From: a virus
Reading direction: 5' to 3' (one strand)
Length of the DNA stretch: 43,434 bases
Virus record (IMG/VR): IMGVR_UViG_3300043331_000510
Coordinates: 1 to 43,434 of that record
Shown: positions 4,148 to 28,481 of the stretch, piece by piece
Layout: each line of letters opens with the position of its first letter
Position numbering within the stretch: position 1 is the stretch's first letter
The notes under the pieces: model-generated
The model's input: the letters and a program-made list of their open reading frames with translations, nothing else
What the model was told of the DNA's origin: nothing
Databases searched by the model: none
Position numbers and translations under genes: made by a program

Positions 4148-5639
4148 CGATAGCCTCGTCGTACCATCCTCTATCTGCGATCATCAGCTTTGTTGAGCCG
4201 TCGGTTGCAGATACGCGACTCCGAATAGTGCCTGTTGTGGAGACCGGAAGCATCATCGCTTGGGCAGCGAATGTGTTTTGTGCTCCTGCACGCAACGTGT
4301 TTAATGGTGATGCAGTTGAAGAAGGCGCAAGGTCAACAGCTGCGACTGGACTAATATAAGCACCAACGGCGCTACTGGCGTGGTTTCCAACCATCACATT
4401 GATAAGAGCTTGTACATGGCTTAGGCCGGTAATGACTGCAAGTGTATGAACAACGGCGTTGGTGTTAGCGGGATTAGTGTCAATCGTTAAGACAGGAGTC
4501 TTGCGAATGAAATAACGTCCGACTTGTGTGATTGGAACAATCACACCACCTTCACGACGGAACGAAAAGATACGACGCTTCTTCGTGCCGCCATCAGGCA
4601 CTGTAGGCGCAAGGCTTTGCTCTGCAAAGATATCGTCAGCACCACCGCTACGACGGAAAGCGTAGCAGTGCCAGACACCGTCTGCAAGTGCGCCGACGCG
4701 CATTCCAGCCCCTGTGCCTGCCGCCCATGCCGCATCTATTTGCTTAGTCATGGCGCCCGGCGCTAACAAGACTCTGTTAGCGGCTAATGCGTCATCACTA
4801 ATACATTCACCTGCTCCAATATCAATGTCATTAGTCGCGTCAACGCCGTTGTTAGCAAACTTCATGCCCCATAGATAACCACGCGACGCAGTCGATGAAA
4901 TAGTGAGAGCACCACCAGCGCCACCATCAACAATACTAATACCGACGCCTGCTGTAATAACACGTTCTACGGTTAGCTCACCGTGGGCTGCAAGAACGAT
5001 AAATTGCGCGCTGTTAGGTGCAGCACTAATCTTCCCACGACCCGCTGAGTTATTAGTTAACTCAATAGCATTCAGCAGGTCCTGAATTGTCGCAGCCGCG
5101 ACACCTGTACCACCTTTGCCAATACTTACAGGGTCAGGCAGCGTGCCAGCGAGAGCCATCACGGCCCACTTGATCCTATTCGCTGCGTTGTCCCAATATG
5201 CAAACTTTCCATCAACCGTTGACCCAACATCGTCAATATCAATGTCTTTCTTAAGAGATTTCTTGCCAAACTTGATAGCTCTGCCAAGAGCCTCTCGCAG
5301 CATCTGGCTGACAAAGCCCGCCTTTTCAAAGTCCTTCTGAATTCTTAATGAGGGGAAATCTTCACCAGACTGATAAACTGACGTGACTGAGACAGGTTGC
5401 TTCCGCATGATTGCCAATGGCTTGCCATTTGCAACCGCGACGGTTGTGGTGATAGTACCACCACCATCAACACCCGCACCTGTTACGGTGTAGTCTACAT
5501 CAAGCACCAATGTAACACCATCAGCAATAACTTCAAGCTCAGTCTTGTCCCAAATCTTGAAGCCATAGGCCCACGGACCTAGTGTGCTACCATCACCAAC
5601 ATGGTTGTTGCGACCGTCGTGGTCGGGTAGACCGCTCAC
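4140..5639 (-). CDS. Tail fibre protein with T7 gp17-like N-terminus
   Basis: A 499-residue protein. Residues about 20-150 resemble the T7 gp17 N-terminal tail-attachment domain: YGFKIWDKTELEVI, then VLDVDYTVTGAG, then LAIMRKQPVSVTSVYQSGEDFP, which is the usual strand/turn succession, followed by helix-forming residues up to FGKKSLKKD. The remainder is Gly/Ala/Thr-rich beta material typical of a fibre shaft and receptor-binding tip. GTG start 5639 has CGGAGG 6 nt upstream and overlaps the previous TGA. It anchors to the tail tube (gp11/gp12-like proteins at 37.5-40.4 kb). The late operon also encodes a beta-helix spike, so the virion may carry two receptor-interacting proteins. Confidence 0.85.
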   Translation of the reverse strand: MSGLPDHDGRNNHVGDGSTLGPWAYGFKIWDKTELEVIADGVTLVLDVDYTVTGAGVDGGGTITTTVAVANGKPLAIMRKQPVSVTSVYQSGEDFPSLRIQKDFEKAGFVSQMLREALGRAIKFGKKSLKKDIDIDDVGSTVDGKFAYWDNAANRIKWAVMALAGTLPDPVSIGKGGTGVAAATIQDLLNAIELTNNSAGRGKISAAPNSAQFIVLAAHGELTVERVITAGVGISIVDGGAGGALTISSTASRGYLWGMKFANNGVDATNDIDIGAGECISDDALAANRVLLAPGAMTKQIDAAWAAGTGAGMRVGALADGVWHCYAFRRSGGADDIFAEQSLAPTVPDGGTKKRRIFSFRREGGVIVPITQVGRYFIRKTPVLTIDTNPANTNAVVHTLAVITGLSHVQALINVMVGNHASSAVGAYISPVAAVDLAPSSTASPLNTLRAGAQNTFAAQAMMLPVSTTGTIRSRVSATDGSTKLMIADRGWYDEAIDE

Positions 5640-6262
5640 TCAAGTCCTCCGAAGAATCTTTGTGTCCAACCACTCATACTACGGACGCGCATCTGGAATT
5701 TTGGTAGTCTTATCATTTCGTCGATGAGCATCTTACCGGCGTCTTTGCCGCTATAGTCAAAGCCATCGCCGCGGGGCGCACCTTCAAAGAATCGTGGCCT
5801 TTGCTCGCCGGGGATGCCACATAAGACAATAGGATCGCAATCCATGATCCAGGCAATCTGCATTGCAAAGTAACCACTTAGATACATGAGTGGACGAAGC
5901 CCATCCCACCCATAATCAACCCACGGCCTTTTACACTCCCCGTGGATCTTCGGCTCCGTCGGCTTTGGGTGTAGCCAACGAACTTGCTTCCAAGCGGGCA
6001 TGTGATCCACATGTAGAGACACCCAATGATCCACATGTGGAAGGTACATCCCAATGTCGTTTACAGCGAACACTAGACTACCTTTCAGCAGGTGAAGAGC
6101 GGTCGAAAGCTCCTCGAAAACGCCAGAAGCAGAACCAACGACGACCGCTGGACGGCCTCGTCCGGAGGCAATCAGACTTTCGACATTGCCGGCGCCCGCA
6201 TAGCCAGCCGCCTGCCAAGTCGAGCCTGCTGTCCCCATAGAGGCCGCCCAACGTTCGGTCAT
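5636..6262 (-). CDS. DUF115/MptE-like Rossmann protein
   Basis: A 208-residue protein from ATG 6262, four bases after the previous TAA. The core RPAVVVGSASGVFEEL, then SLVFAVNDIGMYLP, then VDHWVSLHVDHMP is a Rossmann-type nucleotide-sugar or phosphokinase-like pattern. It is seen in DUF115 / 6-hydroxymethylpterin pyrophosphokinase MptE-like proteins and in small phage relatives placed near capsid and tail genes. GEQRPRFFEGAPRGDGFDYSG may form the C-terminal part of the pocket. The start is soft: an upstream extension is open to 6346 but would overlap the decoration gene. With the glycosyltransferase and FkbM genes it makes three possible surface-modifying genes in the virion operon. The substrate is unknown. 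Confidence 0.55.
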   Translation of the reverse strand: MTERWAASMGTAGSTWQAAGYAGAGNVESLIASGRGRPAVVVGSASGVFEELSTALHLLKGSLVFAVNDIGMYLPHVDHWVSLHVDHMPAWKQVRWLHPKPTEPKIHGECKRPWVDYGWDGLRPLMYLSGYFAMQIAWIMDCDPIVLCGIPGEQRPRFFEGAPRGDGFDYSGKDAGKMLIDEMIRLPKFQMRVRSMSGWTQRFFGGLE

Positions 6263-11280: not shown

Positions 11281-11538
11281 TTAAGACCCAAAGGTCTTCG
11301 CCAATGCCTTGGTGTATGAATCATCAGTCATCATGCGCTTGGCCATTACCGTGCTCCTGTAGCCACGCGCCATCTGCCTCCGACGGAGGGCTTCCGCCTG
11401 TGCCTCCTGAACTTCTTTGTCTGTTTCCTTCGGAGGTTGTTTCGGTTCTGTCGGACGAGGTGGCGATGGTGATCCACCAAAGTGGCGCCTGAAGTCGGGC
11501 GCGCGGTTGTATCTGCCTCGGCATCCCTTAACCACCAT
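11281..11538 (-). CDS. Small head-module protein between terminase and portal
   Basis: An 85-residue protein. ATG 11538 overlaps the terminase stop by 11 bp. The N-terminal half is basic and Pro-rich (SPSPPRPTEPKQPP), the middle helical, and the end carries ARGYRSTVMAKRMM, similar to the RRRGxxSTIL tail of the small proteins found next to terminase in many podoviruses and siphoviruses. Its function in those phages is undefined. Position and motif make it a real head-module gene. Confidence 0.7.
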   Translation of the reverse strand: MVVKGCRGRYNRAPDFRRHFGGSPSPPRPTEPKQPPKETDKEVQEAQAEALRRRQMARGYRSTVMAKRMMTDDSYTKALAKTFGS

Positions 11539-12892
11539 AAGGAATCCTTGGGTCGAATGCGCTGTCTACTTTGACCTGGTCGCGCTCACGACCATAGAAC
11601 ATGCTGGTATTGAGGATAGGCTCCCAGCCGACTTCTGTCCCTGTTCTATAAGCATCAGCCGCGTGTGAATGTTCATCATGAATAGGCTTGGGCATGAAGA
11701 CACGCTTCTCTTCATCGTATTCAGCTTTGTACTTCTTGAGATGCTCAATGCCGATGGCACAGTTGACTTCGTCAAAATAGCTAGTGTAAAGGTCACGACG
11801 ACAATCCTGAATGCTTGTCCACACACTCGCCGTGCGCTTTTCCATCACATTAACATTCTTGAAATGGACCTCTTCGAGGTAATTGGCAGCGGCCCGTCCA
11901 TCCCAAGGTAGACAGATACGCCCAAATGAATAAGGTGTCTCTTCTCTTGCATAACGTGCAAAATCTTTGATTTCTTTCTGCTGCCACTCCTTGTATCTAA
12001 TGAACAACTTCTTGTTCATGAAAATCTGATAGAACCAGGCGGCCATGTGGTCACTGTGGCCAAGATCCAACACTACTCCCACAGGGAGTAGCGGATCATA
12101 TGGCACGCGGGTGATGCGGCCATCGGCGGCAGCCTGCATCATATGCTGACCATAAATAGTTCCATATTGGTATCCTTGGAATGCACAATAATATTCACGT
12201 TGGATATCCTGCTCGCTCTTCCCGTCTCGCCTTTCACCTTCAATAGCCTCAGGTGTAATGACTGGACCACCATTCTCGCCGACTGCGTCACGCCGTGTAT
12301 CGTCAACTGTGAGAACCTGGGAGAACCAACGCTCGGGGTCTGCTTGTGCGGTCTTGAGGAGCTTGTGAAACCAGTCGTCTTCGACATTCGGCGTGGAGAT
12401 GAAAGCTGCCCATCCACCGTTCTCTGCAAGGACGGGTGAAAGAACCTCCCACGCCTTTGGATTCATGAAGCCAGCTTCGCTATAGACTAACCCATAAGGG
12501 TTAGGACCGCGAAGCTTCTCAATCGCCTTCTCATCCTCGGCGCCCATGATCTGATATCGGGCGCCAGTTGTTGTGTGCGTAATGGACATCTCTGCCTCGT
12601 TCCGCAAGAACCCGAGTTCTTGGGGGAACATGTCAATCATGCGAGACTTCTTCCCGCTAGACTCTGTAATCATATTGTCCCATACGTCTCGACGTCCTTG
12701 GTTTAATGCGGGGAAGATGTGGAAATAGGTGGCGGGGTGTTCTAGCATGTCTTCAAAGATGATAGACATCCAATTGCGATCCTTACCGCCACGACGATGA
12801 ATCGCTTCGCAAAATCTCTTCCAACCGGCGCGCTTGGCCCGCCATGTCTTCATCTGATAACTACGACGACCGAAGAGTAGGCGCTCAGACAT
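11528..12892 (-). CDS. terL: Terminase large subunit
   Basis: A 454-residue packaging motor. ATG 12892 shares a base with the previous stop (TGATG), with GAGGAAG upstream. The ATPase half has a phage-type P-loop HRRGGKDRN at residues about 32-40, a Walker B-like YGLVYSEAGF (catalytic Glu follows) and a coupling motif AAFISTPN. The nuclease half has VVLDLGHSDH as first metal aspartate, LPWDGRAA in the middle, and DEHSHAADAYR with the final metal ligand. It cuts concatemers and translocates DNA through the portal. It cannot be assigned to a packaging type (cos, pac or direct repeat) from the sequence alone. Confidence 0.92.
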   Translation of the reverse strand: MSERLLFGRRSYQMKTWRAKRAGWKRFCEAIHRRGGKDRNWMSIIFEDMLEHPATYFHIFPALNQGRRDVWDNMITESSGKKSRMIDMFPQELGFLRNEAEMSITHTTTGARYQIMGAEDEKAIEKLRGPNPYGLVYSEAGFMNPKAWEVLSPVLAENGGWAAFISTPNVEDDWFHKLLKTAQADPERWFSQVLTVDDTRRDAVGENGGPVITPEAIEGERRDGKSEQDIQREYYCAFQGYQYGTIYGQHMMQAAADGRITRVPYDPLLPVGVVLDLGHSDHMAAWFYQIFMNKKLFIRYKEWQQKEIKDFARYAREETPYSFGRICLPWDGRAAANYLEEVHFKNVNVMEKRTASVWTSIQDCRRDLYTSYFDEVNCAIGIEHLKKYKAEYDEEKRVFMPKPIHDEHSHAADAYRTGTEVGWEPILNTSMFYGRERDQVKVDSAFDPRIPYGG

Positions 12893-13425
12893 CAATCCAC
12901 TTCCTCGTCACTGAGGATGCGGAATGCTTCGTCCGAAGGACGACGAGAGGTGGCCTTCTGCCGAACCGGCATGGCTAAAGAGGGCACGTCGATAACGACA
13001 GGGGCCACCTCTGTGTGATCCGCCTCGGGAGGCAGCTCCCCCACGGGAGCTATGTCGACGACGTCAGCTAAAGCATTGTCTTGCCCTCCTATGATGATGC
13101 GAACACCGCCATCAGCGCCTACCTCAACCCGCACCTCAGGTGGCATGGGTCTGAGGTCTTTCTCGCGGACATATAGGCCGCCGACGCTGAACACTTTGTC
13201 GATGGCGCCTTGGCGGGCGGCGTTGTCCGCAAGAGTCTTGGTATGCTTAATCTCACCTTTGTGAGTGATGAATTCAGTCTTAGTGGCATCTAGTTGTTCG
13301 TCTAGGCGGCGCCACGCTTTATTCATAATGTCGGCTGGCACAGCCACACGTTCCATTACCCTACGACGCACCGCGTCGGCTGACATTGTCATGGGGCGTT
13401 CGTTTAGAGCTAGCTTATCGCTCAT
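12892..13425 (-). CDS. Probable terminase small subunit
   Basis: A 177-residue protein from ATG 13425 (TTG 13431 is the other choice). It ends on the terminase large subunit start (TGATG). The N-terminal half is helical and basic (AVRRRVMERVAVPADIMNKA, then WRRLDEQLDATKTEFITHKG), and the C-terminal half is acidic, Pro/Val-rich and probably flexible, ending in a short acidic EEVD. That order is common in small terminase subunits, which recognise the genome and feed it to the large subunit. There is no diagnostic sequence motif, so the call rests on position and layout. The gene at 13415-13735 is the rival candidate. Confidence 0.6.
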   Translation of the reverse strand: MSDKLALNERPMTMSADAVRRRVMERVAVPADIMNKAWRRLDEQLDATKTEFITHKGEIKHTKTLADNAARQGAIDKVFSVGGLYVREKDLRPMPPEVRVEVGADGGVRIIIGGQDNALADVVDIAPVGELPPEADHTEVAPVVIDVPSLAMPVRQKATSRRPSDEAFRILSDEEVD

Positions 13426-13938: not shown

Positions 13939-13944
13939 AGCCTT

Positions 13945-13969
13945 AAGTATCGCATACTTAGTTAAGTAT
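13945..13969. promoter_or_regulatory. Operator-like palindrome cluster, site O1
   Basis: AAGTAT-CGC-ATACTT (13945-13959) overlaps TACTTA-GT-TAAGTA (13955-13968). The same two palindrome types recur at 15150-15171 and 15315-15332. The position, just upstream of the late promoter on the - strand, suggests a shared regulator controls both control regions. The extended match to the third site reads CGCRTACTTAGTTAAGTA. Confidence 0.6.
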
Positions 13970-14155
13970 CAGCCCGACGGCGGCCCACCTTCCTTAGTCA
14001 TAGGCTCCCATAGTCGACACTGCTTCAGCAGGTGAAAGAATGTCAACTTTGCTTTAGCAATGACACTAATTTTTAATCCAAAATATTTTATAAAACCAAC
14101 TGGAAGGCAGGGCAAATCTCATGCCAAGTCCTCGTGAAAACCCCCCTACCCCCGG

Positions 14156-14190
14156 TCAACATAAATCAACCTAAATCAACATAAATCAAC
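14156..14190. repeat. Tandem 10-bp repeats (iteron-like)
   Basis: Three head-to-tail 10-mers of the form MTAAATCAAC (14161-14190), preceded by a partial TCAAC (14156-14160). They are followed at once by AT-rich DNA with a palindrome (14193-14211). Iterons beside AT-rich DNA are typical of replication initiation sites or multimeric regulator sites. There is no gene here (about 500 bp between 13,896 and 14,413). Confidence 0.7.
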
Positions 14191-14192
14191 CA

Positions 14193-14211
14193 TTTACTTT
14201 AGTAAAGTAAA
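14193..14211. promoter_or_regulatory. 19-bp perfect palindrome
   Basis: TTTACTTTAGTAAAGTAAA is a perfect odd-centred inverted repeat directly after the three 10-bp repeats. A related half site follows (GAAGTAAAG near 14224-14232). It is a likely protein-binding site, distinct in sequence from the TACTTA-NN-TAAGTA sites. Confidence 0.55.
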
Positions 14212-14239
14212 CTATTTAGTTTATGAAGTAAAGCATCGG

Positions 14240-14413: not shown

Positions 14414-14953
14414 ATGCCAGGAACATTGAAGAGCAGAGAAGGCGCGGTCGGAACGTTTGCAACCATCGCGAAGTGGCAGATCGAACAGAACGGCCAGAAG
14501 GTCACACAGCAAAAGGAGGGGACGTATACAGGGCCCGCGATCAATCCCGATCGGGAGAACAACACGGGCGCGCTGGAGACGCTCCGCGCCTACTTCCAGT
14601 CGGTGATCACGACCGACGACGCCGCGGGTGCATTCTTCGACGCGTGGAACTACGGAGTCGATCTCAAGGCCAAGGCCAAGCTACGGCCGGCGGCTGGCGT
14701 CGACACTCCGTGGATCTCGCGCGACGGCGTGCGGATCAATCTCGGAACGGGCGAGCGGATCGGCAAGGACGGCAAGGCCATGGCGGCCCTGCCTCTCGAC
14801 AAGGTGATCTCGTTCGTGCAGCGCGCGCACGACGAGGCGGCCGACCTGGACCTGGAGCCGGCCGGCGCCGCTGTGGTCGGGCGGAAGATGCTCCTGGAGA
14901 GCGGAGTGGCCATCGAACGGAACGGCAAGCTGGTCGCCAAGCCGCAGAAGTAG
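14414..14953 (+). CDS. Monocistronic early protein of unknown function
   Basis: A 179-residue protein; ATG 14414 follows GGGAGAGAG. It is a single gene flanked by its own promoter and a strong terminator, unlike everything else here. Codons are strongly C/G-ending, comparable to the capsid genes, which suggests very high expression. The sequence is Lys/Ala/Asp-rich: a basic N-terminus (GTLKSREGAVGTFATIAKW), a helical middle (GALETLRAYFQSVITTDDAA), and an alternating strand/helix C-terminus with LLESGVAIERNGKLVAKPQK. I recognise no family. A host-takeover or abundant nucleic-acid-binding role is a guess from early position and predicted abundance. Confidence 0.8.
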   Translation: MPGTLKSREGAVGTFATIAKWQIEQNGQKVTQQKEGTYTGPAINPDRENNTGALETLRAYFQSVITTDDAAGAFFDAWNYGVDLKAKAKLRPAAGVDTPWISRDGVRINLGTGERIGKDGKAMAALPLDKVISFVQRAHDEAADLDLEPAGAAVVGRKMLLESGVAIERNGKLVAKPQK

Positions 14954-14968: not shown

Positions 14969-15006
14969 ACCCCTGGCGGTCAGTACGACGCCAGGGGTTT
15001 TATTTT
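14969..15006 (+). terminator. Strong intrinsic terminator
   Basis: A perfect 10-bp stem ACCCCTGGCG / CGCCAGGGGT (14969-14978, 14989-14998), 10-base loop, then TTTATTTT. It lies 16 bases after the stop of the 14414 gene and makes it a separate transcription unit. Confidence 0.9.
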
Positions 15007-15033
15007 GCCCGCCGCCCGGACGGTTTGTATAGT
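15005..15033 (+). promoter_or_regulatory. Candidate rightward promoter P2
   Basis: TTGCCC, 17 bases, TATAGT, starting in the T-tract of the preceding terminator. It would transcribe the inverted-repeat element (15065-15426) towards the replication genes. A hairpin (TTAGGC-GTA-GCCTAG) lies just downstream of the predicted start. Confidence 0.45.
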
Positions 15034-15149
15034 GTGTCTACTTAGGCGTAGCCTAGACGCGTGATTTTCAGCACTCATGACATGTTGAACCCCCGTACAC
15101 TGGTGGTCACGTATGCGGCTAGGGCCGCAGAAACCCCAGTGTTTATGCT

Positions 15150-15171
15150 AAGTATTGCATACTTAACTAAG
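15150..15171. promoter_or_regulatory. Operator-like palindrome cluster, site O2
   Basis: AAGTAT-TGC-ATACTT (15150-15164) overlaps TACTTA-AC-TAAG (15160-15171), the same nested arrangement as at 13945-13968. It lies inside unit A of the inverted element. Confidence 0.6.
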
Positions 15172-15261
15172 GCTCCCCTCCCAGCGAGGCAGGGCTAGGC
15201 TGCTGAAAAGATGTCTATTCTAATATAAAATAATAATATATAATATTATATAAGACTAACC

Positions 15262-15273
15262 ATACTTAAGTAT
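15262..15273. promoter_or_regulatory. Core palindrome, site O3
   Basis: ATACTTAAGTAT, a perfect 12-bp palindrome at the edge of the AT-rich core, built from the same half site as O1, O2 and O4 but with no spacer. Confidence 0.5.
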
Positions 15274-15314
15274 TGACGACCTTTCAGCACGCCAGGGGTG
15301 TCCTGGCGGTAGGG

Positions 15315-15332
15315 CGTACTTAACTAAGTACG
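15315..15332. promoter_or_regulatory. Operator-like palindrome, site O4
   Basis: CGTACTTAACTAAGTACG, a perfect 8-bp half site on each side of AC. It lies in unit B and is followed by GCAAGTATGC, another related half site. Confidence 0.6.
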
Positions 15333-15527
15333 CGCAAGTATGCGCGGTGTATGGTGTTTCCCGCCGGGCGGGAACCATACGTGACCACTCCTGTACGCGG
15401 GTTGGCGTAGACATGTGTGCTGAAAATAGGGCGTCGCCTAAGGCGTTTTCAGACATATGTAAGGACAGGTGCTTAAGCACACACTAGCGGTAGTGGTCTA
15501 GTGTCACATAACCCCTACATCTAGTGC

Positions 15528-15557
15528 TTGCACTTGGGCTGGCAGCGATGGTACGGT
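15528..15557 (+). promoter_or_regulatory. Candidate promoter P3 of the replication operon
   Basis: TTGCAC, 18 bases, TACGGT, ending about 40 bases before the ATG at 15597. The -10 is poor, but the context GCGATGGTA is shared with P1 (14323-14350), so both may answer the same form of host polymerase or activator. Confidence 0.35.
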
Positions 15558-15596: not shown

Positions 15597-16229
15597 ATGA
15601 AGCAAGAACCCACCGACAACGCTTCACCTGTTGAAAGCCTGTCGATAGTAGGTGCCAGTGGCATCGTGTGGCAGCCCACCGACAGGTTCCTGGAGAGCTT
15701 GCGAACTGAGCAAGGACGAGGTGGCTGCCAAATCTGTCGTGAAGAGATAGTAGGCGAGGACGCCCGTTACTACGAGCACACCGAACGTCACACCTACTAC
15801 GTAGCAGACAAGATCAAGACCAGTGAACGTCAAGTCGCCATTCGGCGTCATTTCATCCTGAAGCATCAGCAGGGTTCTATTAAGCACTCGCGCGTGGCAC
15901 TAGACGAGCCGGCCAAGGTCATTCCTCTTCCAACGTCACCACAAGTAGTGAAAGAGCCTGCGACAGCAGAGCTTGAAGCCCAAGTTGACGAACTCCAGCG
16001 TCATGTGATCTACATGGAGCGCGAGCTAGTCCTAGCGCGTCATGCTCTAGAACGCCTGTGGAAGCAAGTCGACATCAAGGCACAGGCGGCGTTTGCGGTT
16101 CTACCGAAGGCAAAGCCAACGTCGTTGCCAAAGGCAAAGCAGACAGCCAAAGGCCGCAAGATTCGGCATACCGTTGACAATATTAGTCGCGCAAGCTGGA
16201 ACATACTGTTCGATGAAGAGGAGGATTAA
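15597..16229 (+). CDS. Hypothetical protein with CxxC finger and coiled coil, first gene of replication operon
   Basis: A 210-residue protein. ATG 15597 has AAAGGAG at about 9 nt. Residues about 41-80 hold GGCQICREEIVGEDARYYEH, then HFILKHQQ, with two Cys and several His spaced as in a zinc-finger-like module. Residues about 120-160 (AELEAQVDELQRHVIYMERE) form a coiled coil. The C-terminus is basic (LPKAKPTSLPKAKQTAKGRK). No family is recognised. A DNA-binding early regulator or replication-organising protein would fit the zinc-like element, the coil and the basic tail. Confidence 0.75.
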   Translation: MKQEPTDNASPVESLSIVGASGIVWQPTDRFLESLRTEQGRGGCQICREEIVGEDARYYEHTERHTYYVADKIKTSERQVAIRRHFILKHQQGSIKHSRVALDEPAKVIPLPTSPQVVKEPATAELEAQVDELQRHVIYMERELVLARHALERLWKQVDIKAQAAFAVLPKAKPTSLPKAKQTAKGRKIRHTVDNISRASWNILFDEEED

Positions 16230-16370: not shown

Positions 16371-18071
16371 ATGACACCTAGCATCGCGACCAGTCCAGAC
16401 GACCTCAAAGGTAAGCTGTATCATCCCGAAGACGAAGACTACCTCGGTTTCCAATACGGCGGCATCTTCGAGCTTATCTGCCGTGGCAACGTACTGTTGG
16501 CAGACGAGATGGGATGCGGCAAGACCATCCAGCTTATCGGCTACATCAACGCTACGTTTAGGGACGTAGAGGCGACCAAAGGTCGTCACATGAAGGTGTT
16601 GGTGATTTGTCCCAACAACCTTCGGTTGAATTGGCTCAATGAGCTTGACAGATGGCTTGACCCGGCCTTCGGCAGAGACTTTGAACAATGCACCACGTCC
16701 GCCTTTTTTGAGGCGGATATCGTCGTGTCGTCGTTCGAAGGCCTCACGAAGTGGCATCGTCAGCTTGCAAAGCTGCCATGGGATCTCATCGCAGTTGACG
16801 AGGCACACGCCTTCAAGAATCGCTCCGCAAAGCGGACACGCGCGCTGTATTACTTGACGTCAGTGCCAGAAGCGGCCCTCAACGACGAGGACGCAGACCT
16901 CGCAGAGCTTGAGCGGGCTTTCGCCATCAAGACCAAGCGCGTGATGATGACTGGCACGCCCATTCCCAACTTCCCAATCGAGTTATTTCCACTCATCCAT
17001 TGGCTCGATCCAAAGCAATGGCCATCAGCAGTCGCGTTCAAGAAACGCTATAGTCCATACAAGAACTATAGTTATAACTTGGACGAGCTACAGAAACTTC
17101 TGAGGCAGGGCAAAACGACCCAAGTGGGAATAGAAGAAAAGGTCGAGATGGAAGATGCAGGCACTTCAGACTTTGAGTGCAGGCACTGTGGCGAGTCTTT
17201 TGGACTCGAAGAGTCCGCACGCAACCACGCCAAGGCCAATATTGGTCACTATGTTCGACGTGACCATGGCTTCGTCGCCAAGAAACACACTAAGGCGATC
17301 TTAGCGCCTGGCATGGGCATCATGATCCGCCGCTTGAAGCGTGAAGTTCTCCCAGAACTTCCGAAGAAGCGCCGTCAGATTATTGAACTGCCAGCAGAGG
17401 GAGAACTGCTGGAGATCGTCCTAGAAGAGAAAAAGCTGTGGGAGAAACACGCGAACCTACAGAAAGCCATCGACAAGGCTCTCGACGAGCTTGAGGGTGT
17501 GCAACGCGTGACGGAACGTGAGGTTGACTTTGAGGCGGTCATCGAGTCCCTACGGGCCGAAAACCGCTATGCCTTTGAAGAGATTGCTCTCATCCGTCAT
17601 CGCCTTGCTCAGGCGAAATGCCCCTACGTGTGTGACCACATCGAAGAGGTCCTAGAGAACAAGGACAAGCTGGTGGTCTTCGCCCACCACAGAGACGTCA
17701 TAGAAGCGATCTTCGAGCGCTTCCACGACCGCGCCGTCTTCGTCTACGGTGGCATGGACATCGGTGAGGTCTACAAGCGTAAGGATCGGTTCTGGAACGA
17801 TCGACAGGTTGACCTGCTCATTGGCAGCATCAAGATGACAGGCACGGGTCTCAACTTACAAGTTGCCAGCAACATCGTGTTCGCAGAAGCTGACTGGGTC
17901 CCTGGAACCATCACACAGGCTGAGGATCGTTGTCATCGCATCGGCCAGGACAGCAAGCTATTAATACAGCATCTCGTAGCAGAGAACAGCATGGACGCCT
18001 ATATGATGAAGAAGGTTATTAGAAAACAGAGAGACATACAGATGGCCCTTGATAGGCCGGGGAAAGGATAG
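16371..18071 (+). CDS. SNF2-family DNA helicase/translocase with C2H2-type finger
   Basis: A 566-residue two-lobe SF2 ATPase. ATG 16371 is preceded by AGGAGG. Motif I LLADEMGCGKT (42-52), motif II DEAH (143-146), motif III MTGTP (193-197). The second lobe has KLVVFAHH, GTGLNLQVASNIVFAEADWVPG, and motif VI QAEDRCHRIGQ. Residues 268-293 carry an inserted FECRHCGESF...H...H, a C2H2 zinc finger (C270, C273, H286, H293) between the lobes. It probably remodels protein-DNA or recombination intermediates during replication. Phage SNF2 enzymes are common; the classical finger inside one is not. First enzyme of the replication operon. Confidence 0.92.
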   Translation: MTPSIATSPDDLKGKLYHPEDEDYLGFQYGGIFELICRGNVLLADEMGCGKTIQLIGYINATFRDVEATKGRHMKVLVICPNNLRLNWLNELDRWLDPAFGRDFEQCTTSAFFEADIVVSSFEGLTKWHRQLAKLPWDLIAVDEAHAFKNRSAKRTRALYYLTSVPEAALNDEDADLAELERAFAIKTKRVMMTGTPIPNFPIELFPLIHWLDPKQWPSAVAFKKRYSPYKNYSYNLDELQKLLRQGKTTQVGIEEKVEMEDAGTSDFECRHCGESFGLEESARNHAKANIGHYVRRDHGFVAKKHTKAILAPGMGIMIRRLKREVLPELPKKRRQIIELPAEGELLEIVLEEKKLWEKHANLQKAIDKALDELEGVQRVTEREVDFEAVIESLRAENRYAFEEIALIRHRLAQAKCPYVCDHIEEVLENKDKLVVFAHHRDVIEAIFERFHDRAVFVYGGMDIGEVYKRKDRFWNDRQVDLLIGSIKMTGTGLNLQVASNIVFAEADWVPGTITQAEDRCHRIGQDSKLLIQHLVAENSMDAYMMKKVIRKQRDIQMALDRPGKG

Positions 18072-18339: not shown

Positions 18340-18497
18340 TGACACACTCAGACAACATGCACAAGCCGACCTCAGAGATGATGCAGCACATACTCGAAGT
18401 CGAGAAGTGGGACATGGTCCGTAAGCTTCGTGCGCGCGGCGTTGATGTTCAGGAGAGTGACTTCGTGTTCATATACAAGGATGGCAAGTCAGCATGA
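18339..18497 (+). CDS. Small hypothetical protein, 52 aa
   Basis: ATG 18339 overlaps the previous TGA, SD GAGGAGG upstream; the TGA at 18495-18497 overlaps the NYN ATG at 18494 (ATGA). It is a helix-rich peptide (EMMQHILEVEKWDMVRKLRA) ending in VQESDFVFIYKDG. Overlap on both sides supports translation. Function unknown. Confidence 0.6.
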   Translation: MTHSDNMHKPTSEMMQHILEVEKWDMVRKLRARGVDVQESDFVFIYKDGKSA

Positions 18498-19243
18498 GAC
18501 TAGCAATCTTCATCGACGGCTCCAACTTCTACGCCAGCCTTCGTCGTTTTGACAGTGATGTTGTCATTGACTACGACAAGCTGGCTGTGTGGATCGCACA
18601 GCGCACGGCTGGCCAAGGTCATGTCACGCTTGTCGGCGTTCACTACTTCTATGGCGTCGGCACTAACACATTTGATACCACGAATAAGTTCTTAGACGGG
18701 TTAGAAACCCGAGCCGGCTACTTCGTCCATCGCACTCGCAGAGTGCAACGGCATGGTGAGTGCCAACGATGCGGGAACCGATACCATTACAACATCGAAA
18801 AGCAGAATGACGTCGCCTTGACTGTGACGATGCTCCAAATGGCGGCAGGCAGTCGTTTTGACGCCTGTGTGCTACTCAGTGGCGACGAGGACTTCGTCCC
18901 TGTTATCCAAGCCATCAATGGCTTCGGCCAACAGACGTGGATTGCTACGTGGGGCGCCGAACTGTCCGACGCTCTCCGGCGCGTGGCCTATGGCCACATG
19001 AATCTCAGACAGTCATTAAGCTTTGTGACGAAGCACAGGCGAGAAGGAAGGAGGAGTAGTATGACGGAGACAATGGCATATCAGGTCGACGAGAAGAACT
19101 ACCATCAGGCGTGTGTGCCTGATGGCGAGGGTGGCGTCCAGGTCGCGCTCGAAGGCGACGAAGCAAGCGAAGCTTGCGCGGGCTGCGAGGGTCCGTTGAA
19201 CGAGGCTGCTGCGACGGCGGACGACGAAGAGGCGGCCTGCTGA
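18494..19243 (+). CDS. NYN-domain (LabA/DUF88 PIN-like) nuclease
   Basis: A 249-residue protein. Opens with LAIFIDGSNFY (Asp8), then EKQNDVALTVTMLQMA (Asp106) and VLLSGDEDFVPVIQAI (Asp131, Asp133): the acidic cluster of NYN/PIN-like metal-dependent RNases. A CxxC (C90, C93, GECQRCGNRYH) is inserted just before the second acidic motif. The C-terminus beyond about residue 170 is acidic with CAGCEG and a final Cys, perhaps a second metal site. Likely role: RNA turnover or tRNA/mRNA cleavage in the infected cell. It overlaps both neighbours by 1-4 bases. The target is unknown. Confidence 0.85.
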   Translation: MRLAIFIDGSNFYASLRRFDSDVVIDYDKLAVWIAQRTAGQGHVTLVGVHYFYGVGTNTFDTTNKFLDGLETRAGYFVHRTRRVQRHGECQRCGNRYHYNIEKQNDVALTVTMLQMAAGSRFDACVLLSGDEDFVPVIQAINGFGQQTWIATWGAELSDALRRVAYGHMNLRQSLSFVTKHRREGRRSSMTETMAYQVDEKNYHQACVPDGEGGVQVALEGDEASEACAGCEGPLNEAAATADDEEAAC

Positions 19244-23832: not shown

Positions 23833-25158
23833 ATGACAACGCAACCTGAGACCGTGGAGATCGAGATTGAAAAGATCATTATCGCCGCAGACCGCCAGAG
23901 GACAGAAGACGATGAGGACAAGCTTGCCGAACTTGTCGAAAGCATTAAGAACAACGGCCTTATCAATCCCATTGTTATCGACAGAGAACATAAGCTTATT
24001 GCTGGATTTAGACGCATACAAGCGTATAAGAGACTCGATCAACAGAAGATCAGAGCGACATATTTTGAAAGCCTTGAAGCCCTCGACCAGAAGATCATCG
24101 AATTCGACGAGAATGACAAACGCAAAGACCTCACATGGCAGGAGCGCGCCCGTGCAATCAAAGAAATCTTCGATCTCCAAAAAGCAAAAGCCCAAGCAAC
24201 AAGTCCAGAAAGATGGACTGCGTCCGACACAGCTCGTAGCCTCGGGGTCAGCGTGGGCAAAGTCTCAGAGGACCTTAGTCTTGCGGATGCTCTGGGCAAT
24301 GAAAGAGTCGCCGGGCGTCCAAGCCGTAGAGGTGCTCTCGACACACTTAAGCGGGAAAGGGAGCTTGAACTTGTGCGGGAGATTGCGCGTCGACGGGCCG
24401 CTGGAATTGGAATTCCAACTGGCTTGGTATCCACGACCTTCACGTCTGGCGTCGTCTACCACGCCGACTGTCGAACAGTCCTTGCCGGAATGGCGGAAGA
24501 AAGTGTAGACTTGGTGATAATGGACCCGCCGTGGGGCATTGACTTTAACAACGCAGCCCAATGGACAAAAAAATGGATAGCGAGCTACGACGATTCGGCG
24601 AATGCAGTCAAAGCGATGCTGACGGAATTGGTGCCTCAATTACACCGGGTTCTAAAGGTCGGCGGGCACATATACTCATTCTTTCCGATTCAGGAACCTC
24701 AGTGGTGGGGCGAATTGTTCATGTCTGCAGGATTTGCCATCAGACAGAGGCCATTGATCTGGTTCAAGAGTGGCCAGCCGGGGATTACAGACGTCTACAC
24801 AAGTTTCCTGCCGTGCTACGAATCGATCCTATGGGGCTACAAACCTGGCCCGGAGAACACAAGGAGACTGTTCGCCCGTCCGATACCGGAAGCACAGGGA
24901 TGGCCACGCCAGGCGGGCCTGTGGCACGAGAACGAGAAGCCCGTCGAGATGTTGGACAAGTGGATGGAAGCGAGCAGCGAGATCAATGAGGTTGTGTTAG
25001 ACCCATTTGGAGGCGGCGGGTCGACGGCCGCTTCGGCGTTTGGCCTTGGTAGGTACTTCATAACGAGTGAGGTCGACGACCTTAACTACGCCAAGCTGTG
25101 TCAACGGATCAAGACGTTGGAGGAGAGGAAGGAGGAACAAAACAATGCCGACGTGTAA
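23833..25158 (+). CDS. ParB-domain / DNA adenine or cytosine-N4 methyltransferase fusion
   Basis: A 441-residue two-part protein with SD AAGGAG. Residues 1-155: ParB N-terminal nuclease-like fold (NGLINPIVIDREHKLIAGFR, with GFRR at 58-61) and HTH (SDTARSLGVSVGKVSEDL). Residues 205-430: beta-class amino methyltransferase with motif IV DPPW (231-234) first and the AdoMet motif I (LDPFGGGGSTAASAF) near the C-terminus. Linker rich in Arg. It probably modifies phage DNA at an unknown site to evade restriction, the ParB part steering it to DNA. Fusion of these modules is known in other phages. Confidence 0.9.
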   Translation: MTTQPETVEIEIEKIIIAADRQRTEDDEDKLAELVESIKNNGLINPIVIDREHKLIAGFRRIQAYKRLDQQKIRATYFESLEALDQKIIEFDENDKRKDLTWQERARAIKEIFDLQKAKAQATSPERWTASDTARSLGVSVGKVSEDLSLADALGNERVAGRPSRRGALDTLKRERELELVREIARRRAAGIGIPTGLVSTTFTSGVVYHADCRTVLAGMAEESVDLVIMDPPWGIDFNNAAQWTKKWIASYDDSANAVKAMLTELVPQLHRVLKVGGHIYSFFPIQEPQWWGELFMSAGFAIRQRPLIWFKSGQPGITDVYTSFLPCYESILWGYKPGPENTRRLFARPIPEAQGWPRQAGLWHENEKPVEMLDKWMEASSEINEVVLDPFGGGGSTAASAFGLGRYFITSEVDDLNYAKLCQRIKTLEERKEEQNNADV

Positions 25159-25327
25159 AGAATGTCAACAGAAATTCGACGAAGAAAGTGAAGGTACAGT
25201 CGTCGAAACTGTAGCTGACGATCCAGAGGCTGATTTTCCTGACCCGCCAGCATATATGGTTCATATTGCCTGCTACGCAAAATTGCATAACGAGATAATC
25301 AAGCGTATAGGCGATTTGTACGAATAA
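25145..25327 (+). CDS. Small zinc-finger-like protein, 60 aa
   Basis: ATG 25145 overlaps the methyltransferase end by 14 bp, with GGAGG upstream; TAA overlaps the polymerase ATG (TAATG). PTCKECQQKFDEES (CxxC) and HIACYAKLHNE (C...H) could bind one zinc. It precedes the polymerase gene directly. Function unknown. Confidence 0.55.
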   Translation: MPTCKECQQKFDEESEGTVVETVADDPEADFPDPPAYMVHIACYAKLHNEIIKRIGDLYE

Positions 25328-27003
25328 TGCCAGTCATAGCATCAGGTCCTAAACAATGTAAGATAATGTTCGTCGGCATGGGACCCGCCCAAGAGGAGGT
25401 TCGGACAGGTGTACCGTTTATGGGACCCGCGGGCATGGTATTCAACAAAAGTCTCAAAAAGCTTGGCGTCTCCCGTTCGGACGTATACGTTACGAACGTT
25501 CACGATGAGTTTCTGGCGCCAGGGACATCACTGTTCAGTCTCCCTTCTGAGAAACTCACACGTAGTGTGCAGCGTCTCGCGGCTGAGATTAAGTCGGTTC
25601 AACCAAACGTGGTTGTTCCGATGGGAGACGAGCCTCTTCACTTCATTACTGGACTTAGCGGTATCACCAAATGGCGTGGCAGTATCGTGCCGTCTACACT
25701 TGTGCCGGGCGTTAAGTGTGTCCCAAGCATCCACACGGCCTGGATCATCAGAGGAATGTGGAAGTGGGAGCCAGTCTTCACACACATAGATATTAAGAGG
25801 GCGCTAGATAACATTGACTACCCTGAAATCAGATTGCCAAAGCAAGAGGCGATTACTGGTCCGTCTTATAACACGGTCCTTGATTACATACACGAATGCG
25901 AACAACACGAAGAACTCGTATTCGACTATGAGATTTTCGATTACGAGAATCATTTGGGACAAGTCAGCTGTGTCGGTATTGGACATAAGCCAGAACAGGC
26001 ACTCACTATACCGTTTACGAAGCATGGAAATCATATGCACTACTGGACACTTGAGCAAGAAGCTAACATTTGGTTACGTCTGGCGCATCTATTACAGAAT
26101 CCCAACATTAAGAAATCGAATCAACACCTAGCATTTGAATGGATATATTCCTGGGCACATAAGATGTATCCAGCAAATCCTTGGATCTGCACAATGGAGC
26201 TTCATCAGTCTTTATATCCTGACTGGGGGCAAACCGAAGATGTCTTCCAAAGCCGACGTAAGAATATGGACGAACCAGGACATGGCCTTGCTTTTATCGT
26301 ATCACATTATGGTGATGGAATTAACTATTATAAAGATGATGGACGAAAATGGATACCTTCCTATGGAGATCATAAGTTTTGGGAGTATTGCGCCAAAGAC
26401 GTCATGTCGACATTCTACTGTAAAAATAAGATGTATGAAGAAGCAGTAGAGAACAACCAATGGGACATCTACGTAGGATGGAACCAACGACCATTCCTTC
26501 ACAAACTTCGGAATGAGTGGCATGGTTATGCGGTCAATACTGGACTACGTGAAGAAGTCGGCAAAGAACTTGTGAAAGAAATTGACGCCCTGCAGAAGCA
26601 AATCAACGAGCGCGTGGGTTATGAACTCAATGTCAATAGTTCTAAGCAGATGCAGGATTATCTTTACAAGCGTATGCAATACACGCCTAAGACCAAGGTT
26701 GTCTATAACAAGAAGAAAGGTATCCGTGAGAGACGGATAACGAGTGATAAAATCGCTCTGCGAGAGCTACAGGCGAAGCATCAGGACGAAGTCCTGTTTT
26801 GGGTAGATGAACTTCGAGCCAAGCGCGACTTGAAGGGTGATATTGTGGATCAGAGGCTAGGTCCGAGTGGCCGAATGCACACGCATTTTGGTATCACTGA
26901 TACCAATAGATGGACCAGCGGCAAGAGTATTATAGGCGTGGGAACGAATATGCAAAACGTCCCGGTTAAGGGAATAGCCAGACGGCTATTCACGGCGGAC
27001 TAA
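25327..27003 (+). CDS. polA: Split DNA polymerase I, N-terminal half (UDG-like, 3'-5' exonuclease, thumb)
   Basis: A 558-residue protein. Residues 1-165: family-4 uracil-DNA-glycosylase-like (FVGMGPAQEEVRTGVPFMGP, with H136 in VPSIHTAW) but without the CxxC pair of true Fe-S UDGs. Residues about 195-380: 3'-5' exonuclease (Asp200-x-Glu202 in FDYEIF; NQHLAFEW; YCAKDVM). Residues 395-558: thumb and first palm part, ending RRLFTAD and a stop exactly where motif A should follow. The missing palm and fingers are encoded at 27621. The next ATG abuts the TAA. The two halves must assemble in trans for activity. ATG 25327 shares a base with the previous stop. Confidence 0.9.
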   Translation: MPVIASGPKQCKIMFVGMGPAQEEVRTGVPFMGPAGMVFNKSLKKLGVSRSDVYVTNVHDEFLAPGTSLFSLPSEKLTRSVQRLAAEIKSVQPNVVVPMGDEPLHFITGLSGITKWRGSIVPSTLVPGVKCVPSIHTAWIIRGMWKWEPVFTHIDIKRALDNIDYPEIRLPKQEAITGPSYNTVLDYIHECEQHEELVFDYEIFDYENHLGQVSCVGIGHKPEQALTIPFTKHGNHMHYWTLEQEANIWLRLAHLLQNPNIKKSNQHLAFEWIYSWAHKMYPANPWICTMELHQSLYPDWGQTEDVFQSRRKNMDEPGHGLAFIVSHYGDGINYYKDDGRKWIPSYGDHKFWEYCAKDVMSTFYCKNKMYEEAVENNQWDIYVGWNQRPFLHKLRNEWHGYAVNTGLREEVGKELVKEIDALQKQINERVGYELNVNSSKQMQDYLYKRMQYTPKTKVVYNKKKGIRERRITSDKIALRELQAKHQDEVLFWVDELRAKRDLKGDIVDQRLGPSGRMHTHFGITDTNRWTSGKSIIGVGTNMQNVPVKGIARRLFTAD

Positions 27004-27442: not shown

Positions 27443-27624
27443 TTGACGATGTCATTGCGGATTTTCGTAAGTTTATTGCCGAACACGGAACTGAGCCTGC
27501 ATATATTTCAGTGTCACCTGAGGTTTACGAAAGGCTTAAAGCCGAGTTTGGTCAACTAATGGAAATTAAAGATGAGTTGAAATTTAGCAAATTCATGGGG
27601 CTTGAGATTCGCGTAAGAGAATGA
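27433..27624 (+). CDS. Insert gene 3: small protein, 63 aa
   Basis: ATG 27433 overlaps the zinc-ribbon stop; TGA at 27622-27624 overlaps the polA-C ATG (ATGA). Short helices (DDVIADFRKFIAEHGTEP, YERLKAEFGQLMEIKDEL) and ends GLEIRVRE. No family is recognised. Confidence 0.55.
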   Translation: MSLIDDVIADFRKFIAEHGTEPAYISVSPEVYERLKAEFGQLMEIKDELKFSKFMGLEIRVRE

Positions 27625-28481
27625 AGAAAAAAGTCTGGATAATGTGTGACTACAGCCAAGCGGAGATACGCGTGGCCGCCTGGAAAGGTCCCATTCCAGC
27701 CATGAAGACGTGGTTTCAGCGAGGTGAGGACATCCATATAAATGTGGCACGTTTGATTGGCAAGGTGGTGCATGAGGCTAAAGTAGACATGCCATTCATC
27801 AAGGGTTCAAGAGAGATGCTATGGAGGCGTAAGCCACCGGAGGAACTAAATGCAGATGACAAAACAGATAACGAGAATGAGCGAGATTTATCCAAACGAA
27901 CAGTACACGCTAACACTAACGGAATGTGGAAGAATCGCTTCGCACTTATTACAGGTCTTCCCGTGCCAATTGCAGGCATTGTTCAAGACACATATCATGG
28001 GCTATTCCCTGAGATACGTGGCAATTATCACAAGGGTATCCAAAACGAGGTACTCAGTAATGGTGGCACGTTGGTCAATCCGTGGGGGTGGCCACGCACC
28101 TTCTATAAAATCAACCCGTTTACGGGTACATACGATGAAGACGAGTTGCGAGTCATGTACGCGTGGTATCCTCAGTCGACTATTGGTATGCTTACGGTTA
28201 AAGCGTGGACTGAGATGTGTTCGATCTTTGAGGGAATCTACACTCCAAGACTTTGGAAACCGAGTGAGATCGTTAGACTCGGCCTTGACTGTCGACTACA
28301 AGTTCATGATCTGGTCGGAGTCTCATGCGAAGATGATCCCGTTGCCATTAGGGAGACAGCAACACAAATGAAGAAGTGTGGCGAGATACCAATGGTCATC
28401 AATAACGAAGAGTTGATAGTACCAATGGACTTTAAGGTGGGACCATCATGGGGAGAGATGAAGAAGTACGTGCTACAATGA
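27621..28481 (+). CDS. polA: Split DNA polymerase I, C-terminal half (palm and fingers)
   Basis: A 286-residue protein. Motif A IMCDYSQAEIRV (D10) is at the very start, motif B RDLSKRTVHANTNGM at 88-102, motif C LQVHDLV at 226-232 (D230). It supplies both catalytic aspartates and the nucleotide-binding helix missing from the 25327 gene. ATG 27621 overlaps the stop of insert gene 3. Oddities: in the fingers helix the position of the conserved Tyr before Gly is Asn100, and the residue after HD in motif C is Leu rather than Glu. Whether these reduce activity is unknown. Its TGA overlaps the next ATG. Confidence 0.9.
   Translation: MKKKVWIMCDYSQAEIRVAAWKGPIPAMKTWFQRGEDIHINVARLIGKVVHEAKVDMPFIKGSREMLWRRKPPEELNADDKTDNENERDLSKRTVHANTNGMWKNRFALITGLPVPIAGIVQDTYHGLFPEIRGNYHKGIQNEVLSNGGTLVNPWGWPRTFYKINPFTGTYDEDELRVMYAWYPQSTIGMLTVKAWTEMCSIFEGIYTPRLWKPSEIVRLGLDCRLQVHDLVGVSCEDDPVAIRETATQMKKCGEIPMVINNEELIVPMDFKVGPSWGEMKKYVLQ

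Follow-up and report, generated by a model that had tools for sequence, protein, structure and literature searches.

To our knowledge, the replication origins of most uncultured phages are unknown. In HSV oriS, inverted protein-binding boxes flank an AT-rich spacer, an arm hairpin is present, and the origin-binding protein UL9 is an SF2 helicase (PMC12543377). The lambda origin contains an AT-rich region of about 40 bp that is opened beside repeated initiator sites built of inverted repeats (PMC5043065). Iteron origins, including the PLE RepA origin, R6K, and P1, combine replicon-specific repeats with an AT or poly-A stretch and adjoin replication genes (PMC7145576, PMC5043065). The primary origin of phage T7 is located near the early end of its 40-kb genome and is started by transcription (PMC8472574).

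The locus described here, a long imperfect dyad in an uncultured podophage, is in our judgment probably the primary replication origin of this phage. This reading follows from its AT-rich core, mirrored replicon-specific sites, and adjoining replication genes, a layout in common with lambda, plasmids, and HSV oriS. As in iteron or AT-type origins, several copies of short replicon-specific sites stand beside a predicted AT-rich unwinding element. As in oriS, inverted boxes flank an AT-rich spacer; UL9 is an SF2 helicase, and a gene for an SF2-type (SNF2) helicase lies downstream of the element here. The arms are about 180 bp long, however, in contrast to the short boxes of oriS, and the likeness claimed is one of layout. 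Whereas the lambda sites lie inside gene O beside the AT region, those found here are noncoding and mirrored across the core, and no lambda-type O-like initiator was found among the proteins scanned. Likewise, the iteron origins of phage satellites and plasmids mostly carry direct repeats, unlike this long dyad. The resemblance to T7 extends to the virion proteins, a PolA-type polymerase, and the early-end position of the predicted origin. A phage RNA polymerase, by which a T7-type origin would be recognized, was not matched in PHROG or Pfam scans of about 30 proteins, a set that took in part of the small ORFs, and we know of no such dyad in T7.

Genomic setting

The window, meaning the whole stretch of DNA analyzed, is a virus record 43,434 bases long whose two ends share a 21-base repeat. 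A 667-codon open frame crosses the joined ends, which together with the repeat indicates a circular assembly of 43,413 bp. The genome is that of a podophage with T7-like virion proteins, namely a head-tail connector, tail proteins, an internal virion protein, and the terminase large subunit (PHROG/Pfam). Searches with stretches of the window found no DNA-level relatives in 50,697 phage records. The dyad occupies noncoding DNA of the early region, with the leftward terminase genes on one side and the replication operon on the other (Table 1). This operon encodes a SNF2-type helicase, an NYN protein (18494-19243), an exonuclease, a Sak4-like protein, a ParB-like domain fused to a DNA methyltransferase (23833-25158), a split polymerase, and a DUF3987 primase. 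The polymerase belongs to family A and is divided over two ORFs (25327-27003 and 27621-28481), as it is in close relatives. The N-terminal part of the first ORF looks UDG-like and is apparently related to a UDG-annotated record.

The protein encoded upstream of the dyad has no recognisable fold; its structure model is modest (pLDDT 75) and gave no structural match. The gene ends in a terminator-like hairpin that is missed by the terminator scan because its loop exceeds the length allowed. As an explanation of the dyad itself, terminators account for less than an origin does, since they need neither an AT core nor a 400-bp dyad.

Table 1. Coordinates of the dyad, its parts, and the neighboring features in the window.
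Feature	Position	Strand	Basis
Terminase large subunit	11528-12895	-	T7-like virion set
Operator-like sequence as in the dyad, divergent region upstream of terminase operon	13944-13969	none	RTACTTA half-sites
Upstream gene, conserved neighbor of the element in five lineages	14414-14953	+	Comparison of relatives
Terminator-like hairpin ending the upstream gene	14969-15006	+	10-bp perfect stem (14969-14978/14989-14998), then T-rich TTTTATTTT
Whole imperfect dyad (predicted origin)	15041-15442	none	Gapped arms 15041-15221 / 15269-15442, 113/172 columns paired
Unit A, 145 bp	15065-15209	+	Bounded by TTTTCAGCA...TGCTGAAAA; ssDNA fold z -2.6
TGCTGAAA motif 1, candidate initiator site	15066-15073	-	Motif count
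Operator-like site TAAGTAT-TGC-ATACTTA-AC-TAAG, unit A	15149-15171	none	RTACTTA half-sites
TGCTGAAA motif 2, candidate initiator site	15201-15208	+	Motif count
AT-rich core, predicted DNA-unwinding element	15210-15281	none	Base composition
Central palindrome TATATAATATTATATA	15237-15252	none	Dyad center 15245.5
Palindrome ATACTTAAGTAT, right edge of core	15262-15273	none	Sequence
Unit B, 145 bp, inverted relative to unit A	15282-15426	-	ssDNA fold z -6.0
TGCTGAAA motif 3, candidate initiator site	15282-15289	-	Motif count
Operator-like site GTACTTA-AC-TAAGTAC, unit B	15316-15331	none	RTACTTA half-sites
TGCTGAAA motif 4, candidate initiator site	15418-15425	+	Motif count
Early promoter region of replication operon, CCCCTACATCTwGyGCTTG	15511-15556	+	Common to relatives
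First gene of replication operon	15597-16229	+	No Pfam/PHROG match
Replication operon	15.6 to 30.7 kb	rightward	PHROG/Pfam protein scans
SNF2-type SF2 helicase	16371-18071	+	PHROG 62, E 5e-83

GC skew, which is confounded by gene direction, gives a mixed picture. Its minimum is close to the dyad in three genomes, at distances of 1.05 kb (window), 1.85 kb (MW202554.1), and 0.5 kb (MF497422.1); with the same confounding, the dyad of MW202489.1 is close to the skew maximum and the minimum of one further genome is distant from the dyad. In the window, the minimum is nearer to the divergent region at 14.12-14.24 kb than to the dyad, and the origin might be placed there, with the 15.2-kb dyad as an accessory. 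This region contains tandem TCAACATAAA repeats (14156-14190), the spot that ranks second in the genome for AT content (AT 0.80 at 14173), and a CATGCCAAGTC...AAAACCCCC sequence conserved across lineages. The block nevertheless lies in a bidirectional promoter region, which would suffice to explain its conservation, and the window shows no dyad or mirrored sites there; we regard an origin in this region as decidedly unlikely.

Symmetry and structure of the dyad

The dyad is the outlier of its genome. When, at each point of the window, the 200 bases to its left were aligned with the 200 to its right, the score reached 38.5 at 15244, compared with 15.5 at the runner-up place. None of 2000 dinucleotide shuffles came near the gapped dyad score of 39.5 (maximum 17), and the arms retain a score of 35.5 when the core is left out (shuffle maximum 16). 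Without gaps, the inverted arms pair at 45 of 60 positions (15056-15115 / 15376-15435); this is the best inverted match within 420 bp anywhere in the genome, the best elsewhere being 34/60. The symmetry extends from about 15029 to 15462 (aligned part 15041-15442), beyond the limits given in the original prediction. Most descriptive elements of that prediction were reproduced. The 40 of 52 matching bases of the outer arms were found at 15064-15115 / 15376-15427 (39/52 with a one-base shift). The two units are of equal length, and both are bounded by TTTCAGCA...TGCTGAAA, the CAGCAC/GTGCTG-type ends that had been described. Each has its GC hairpin (15116-15131 and 15355-15377) and its TACTTA-NN-TAAG palindrome (15160-15171 and 15317-15330). 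The core had been called AT-rich; its 60-mer at 15217-15276 is 87% AT, the highest of any 60-mer in the genome. A hairpin-telomere resolution site of the N15 type was rejected as an identity for the dyad, given that no protelomerase match was obtained among the proteins scanned, the arms are only 75% complementary, and the center is 16 bp of AT.

One proposed feature did not survive. Compensating differences between units A and B had been put forward, yet the two hairpins sit a few alignment columns apart and the ATACTTA stems are in different registers, so the same pairs are not being compared. Of 30 predicted pairs in the unit alignment, 7 show double changes, and only two sequences are compared. 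The closing stem TTTCAGCA/TGCTGAAA is invariant and the other helices of A and B are out of register; covariation between the units was therefore rejected, the sequences being too few and the helices misaligned. Comparison between phages thus supports conservation of structure over sequence in the overall architecture; compensatory base-pair change between the two units is not supported.

The units differ in how well they fold. The ssDNA fold of unit A is modest, with 3 of 200 shuffles folding equally well, and unit B is strongly structured both as ssDNA (Table 1) and as RNA (z -6.3). A fold z of -9.0 was obtained for the whole 442-base strand, a value that is mainly a restatement of the dyad. 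The good fold of unit B and the inverted ends of the units could point to twin structured RNAs, one of the options first raised, or to a miniature transposon pair. Rfam covariance models, however, gave no match at the gathering score or at E <= 1, and the units lack a promoter/terminator pair. No other copies of them were found in the genome. Neither sequence nor fold is common to relatives, which keep the dyad and AT core instead. If the units were RNA genes, a loss of both sequence and fold with mirror symmetry retained would not be expected, so this reading explains less, and we consider RNA genes or transposons most improbable.

Repeated sites and a predicted initiation mechanism

Short motifs are concentrated within the arms. 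The element contains 4 of the 7 genome copies of TGCTGAAA and 4 of the 9 copies of ATACTTA. RTACTTA half-sites are likewise clustered: 9 of 12 in the genome fall in 13944-13969 and 15149-15331. Because ATACTTA sites occur at both the divergent region and the dyad, one phage protein may act at both. The TAAGTAT-YGC-ATACTTA arrangement (7-bp stem, 3-nt loop), which occurs twice in the genome, was considered as an N4-type promoter hairpin and rejected, as the large virion protein matches an internal virion protein family rather than an RNA polymerase.

These half-sites raise the question of transcription control, with the arms serving as operator arrays at which a phage regulator would act, placed between the early genes and the replication operon. 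Their presence upstream of the terminase operon and the promoter-like block downstream of the dyad are consistent with such a role, and for the switch suggested in the original prediction the operator-like repeats are the one positive sign. Transcription control would, however, leave the 400-bp dyad, the extreme AT core, and the conserved layout unexplained, and the TGCTGAAA ends are absent from the 13.95-kb site. As an account of the whole element it is very unlikely.

A replication origin, also among the options first named, is favored by the architecture, the place, and the recurrence in relatives. Under the origin reading, the AT-rich core would be the strand-opening element and the two inverted units would be arms with mirrored sites, TGCTGAAA at the four unit ends and ATACTTA half-sites inside. 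A phage initiator may bind both arms, bend or twist the DNA, and melt the core; arm hairpins extruded in supercoiled or single-stranded DNA may keep it open. The helicase, primase, and PolA encoded just downstream could then start forks in both directions. No DnaA box is present in the window's element, and no initiator family was recognized among the proteins scanned (PHROG/Pfam, and a structure search of the upstream gene's protein).

Recurrence of the layout in relatives

The original prediction depended on conservation in relatives, and the layout recurs in a close relative and in several distant ones. Close relatives were found through polymerase and portal scans; genome-contig scans gave no relative, and the 30 viral contigs matched by an exact DNA pattern of the unit start were not counted as such. 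One close relative, present in several assemblies, has 49-57% identity in key proteins. Its contig L073 spans the corresponding place, with hairpin units at 5989-6070 and 6127-6216 around a core at 6078-6123 that consists of TTTATATTTATA and 29 A; the arms are 32 nt and match at 88%. The sequence is unrelated to that of the window, but layout and position, between the conserved terminase-side gene and the helicase operon, are identical.

In three further assemblies of this relative, the contigs stop within the element. Such stops could mark a DNA packaging or end-forming site, at which terminase or a structure-specific nuclease cuts the hairpin-rich dyad to give T7-type linear ends. In T7-type genomes, the ends lie between the terminase and early genes, which is where the element sits, and the virion genes are T7-like. 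However, L073 runs straight across the element, and one broken contig ends in poly-G and one in poly-A, as a sequencing or assembly block would give. The read-through and the homopolymer runs weaken the breaks as evidence of genome ends; the stops are probably due to hairpins and homopolymers blocking sequencing or assembly. In addition, we know of no pac or terminal-repeat layout in which a dyad carrying mirrored repeats encloses an AT core. A packaging site is thus unlikely.

Further genomes also bear on the origin reading. In two more relatives, L157 and L173, inverted GC-rich arms enclose an AT core, and this element is placed between the conserved gene and the divergent promoter region. 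L157 shows only a weak dyad in the scan and carries TGACAGTGTCA four times, two per side of the core; L173 has an outlier dyad of 22.5 in the early region. Among public genomes with a related polymerase (21-28% identity), the top early-region dyads score 47 in MW202554.1, 38.5 in MW202489.1, and 33 in MW202622.1, followed by leading dyads of 30.5 in OP947158.1, 23 in PP438425.1, and 21 in MF497422.1. Two relatives are cultured phages: Microcystis phage Mel-JY34, whose dyad is at about 44.20 kb, and Vibrio phage VS-ABTNL-3, whose dyad is at about 40.74 kb. Most of the cores are AT-rich, the core of MW202622.1 being an exception and OP947158.1 being AT-rich throughout its genome; arm sequences are unrelated between phages. 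The element is not universal among relatives, no such dyad being found in Kuura, ctfzr933, G003, or G008.

As a control, for which a helicase scan had supplied many other phages, the dyad scan was run on 132 other viral loci (1.53 Mb). Only one dyad scored at least 30, that of L108 (45.5), where the gene order is the same as in the window: TerL (minus), dyad, then SNF2 helicase, exonuclease, and PolA (plus). At 4899-5190, L108 has nine CTGACAC repeats that flank an AT core and reverse their orientation across it, a very regular and origin-like arrangement. Each of the five clearest cases has a short lineage-specific motif in at least four copies that mirror one another across the core. The arms hold GTACACTCA 4/4, TGACAGTGTCA 4/4, GCCATTTCC 4/4, and CTGACAC 9/11 of the copies, and these repeats are iteron-like. 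The relatives were scanned after the hypothesis was formed and thresholds were set by eye, so the comparison provides strong support rather than a blind test.

It is possible, and we suggest it tentatively, that these elements represent a class of phage origin not described so far and widespread among podophages of 40-45 kb that have a UDG-type PolA. Its long dyad would keep its architecture while the sequence turns over wholly, driven by an initiator that might be the SNF2-type helicase acting in a UL9-like manner. Origin architecture would then be conserved despite rapid sequence turnover, and the herpesvirus system of origin and SF2 helicase might have a parallel in bacterial viruses. Since the scan picks one outlier spot per genome beside replication genes, origin and initiator are directly testable in this group.

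Several smaller observations concern the same regions. The noncoding block of CATGCCAAGTC then AAAACCCCC, in variant forms, lies at 14120-14150 in the window and at about 4117 in L073, 4548 in L067, and 35724 in L188. L157 and L173 have the reverse complement of its 5' part at about 950 and 877, and MW202554.1 matches more weakly; a promoter, packaging, or origin element are candidate roles. Tandem repeats of TCAACATAAA and ATAAAGTAAACCATTTACTTT occupy 14156-14236 of the divergent region, at the second-highest AT spot. The contig ends within the hairpin element of the close relative are a poly-G run and a poly-A run (L060 10072-10099 / L058 1-23), the A run also being present in L073; these ends resemble an artefact of sequencing or assembly where the DNA is structured. 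Where its relatives have the dyad, L062 (contig 3300031576_000165) has, at 366-437, a run made up purely of (GA)n, roughly 36-38 units long. The run is flanked by TGGCATGATTCTGGC and GCAAGATTCATGCCA, the latter nearly repeating GCAAGATGCATGCCAGAAAA of the divergent region of the same phage.
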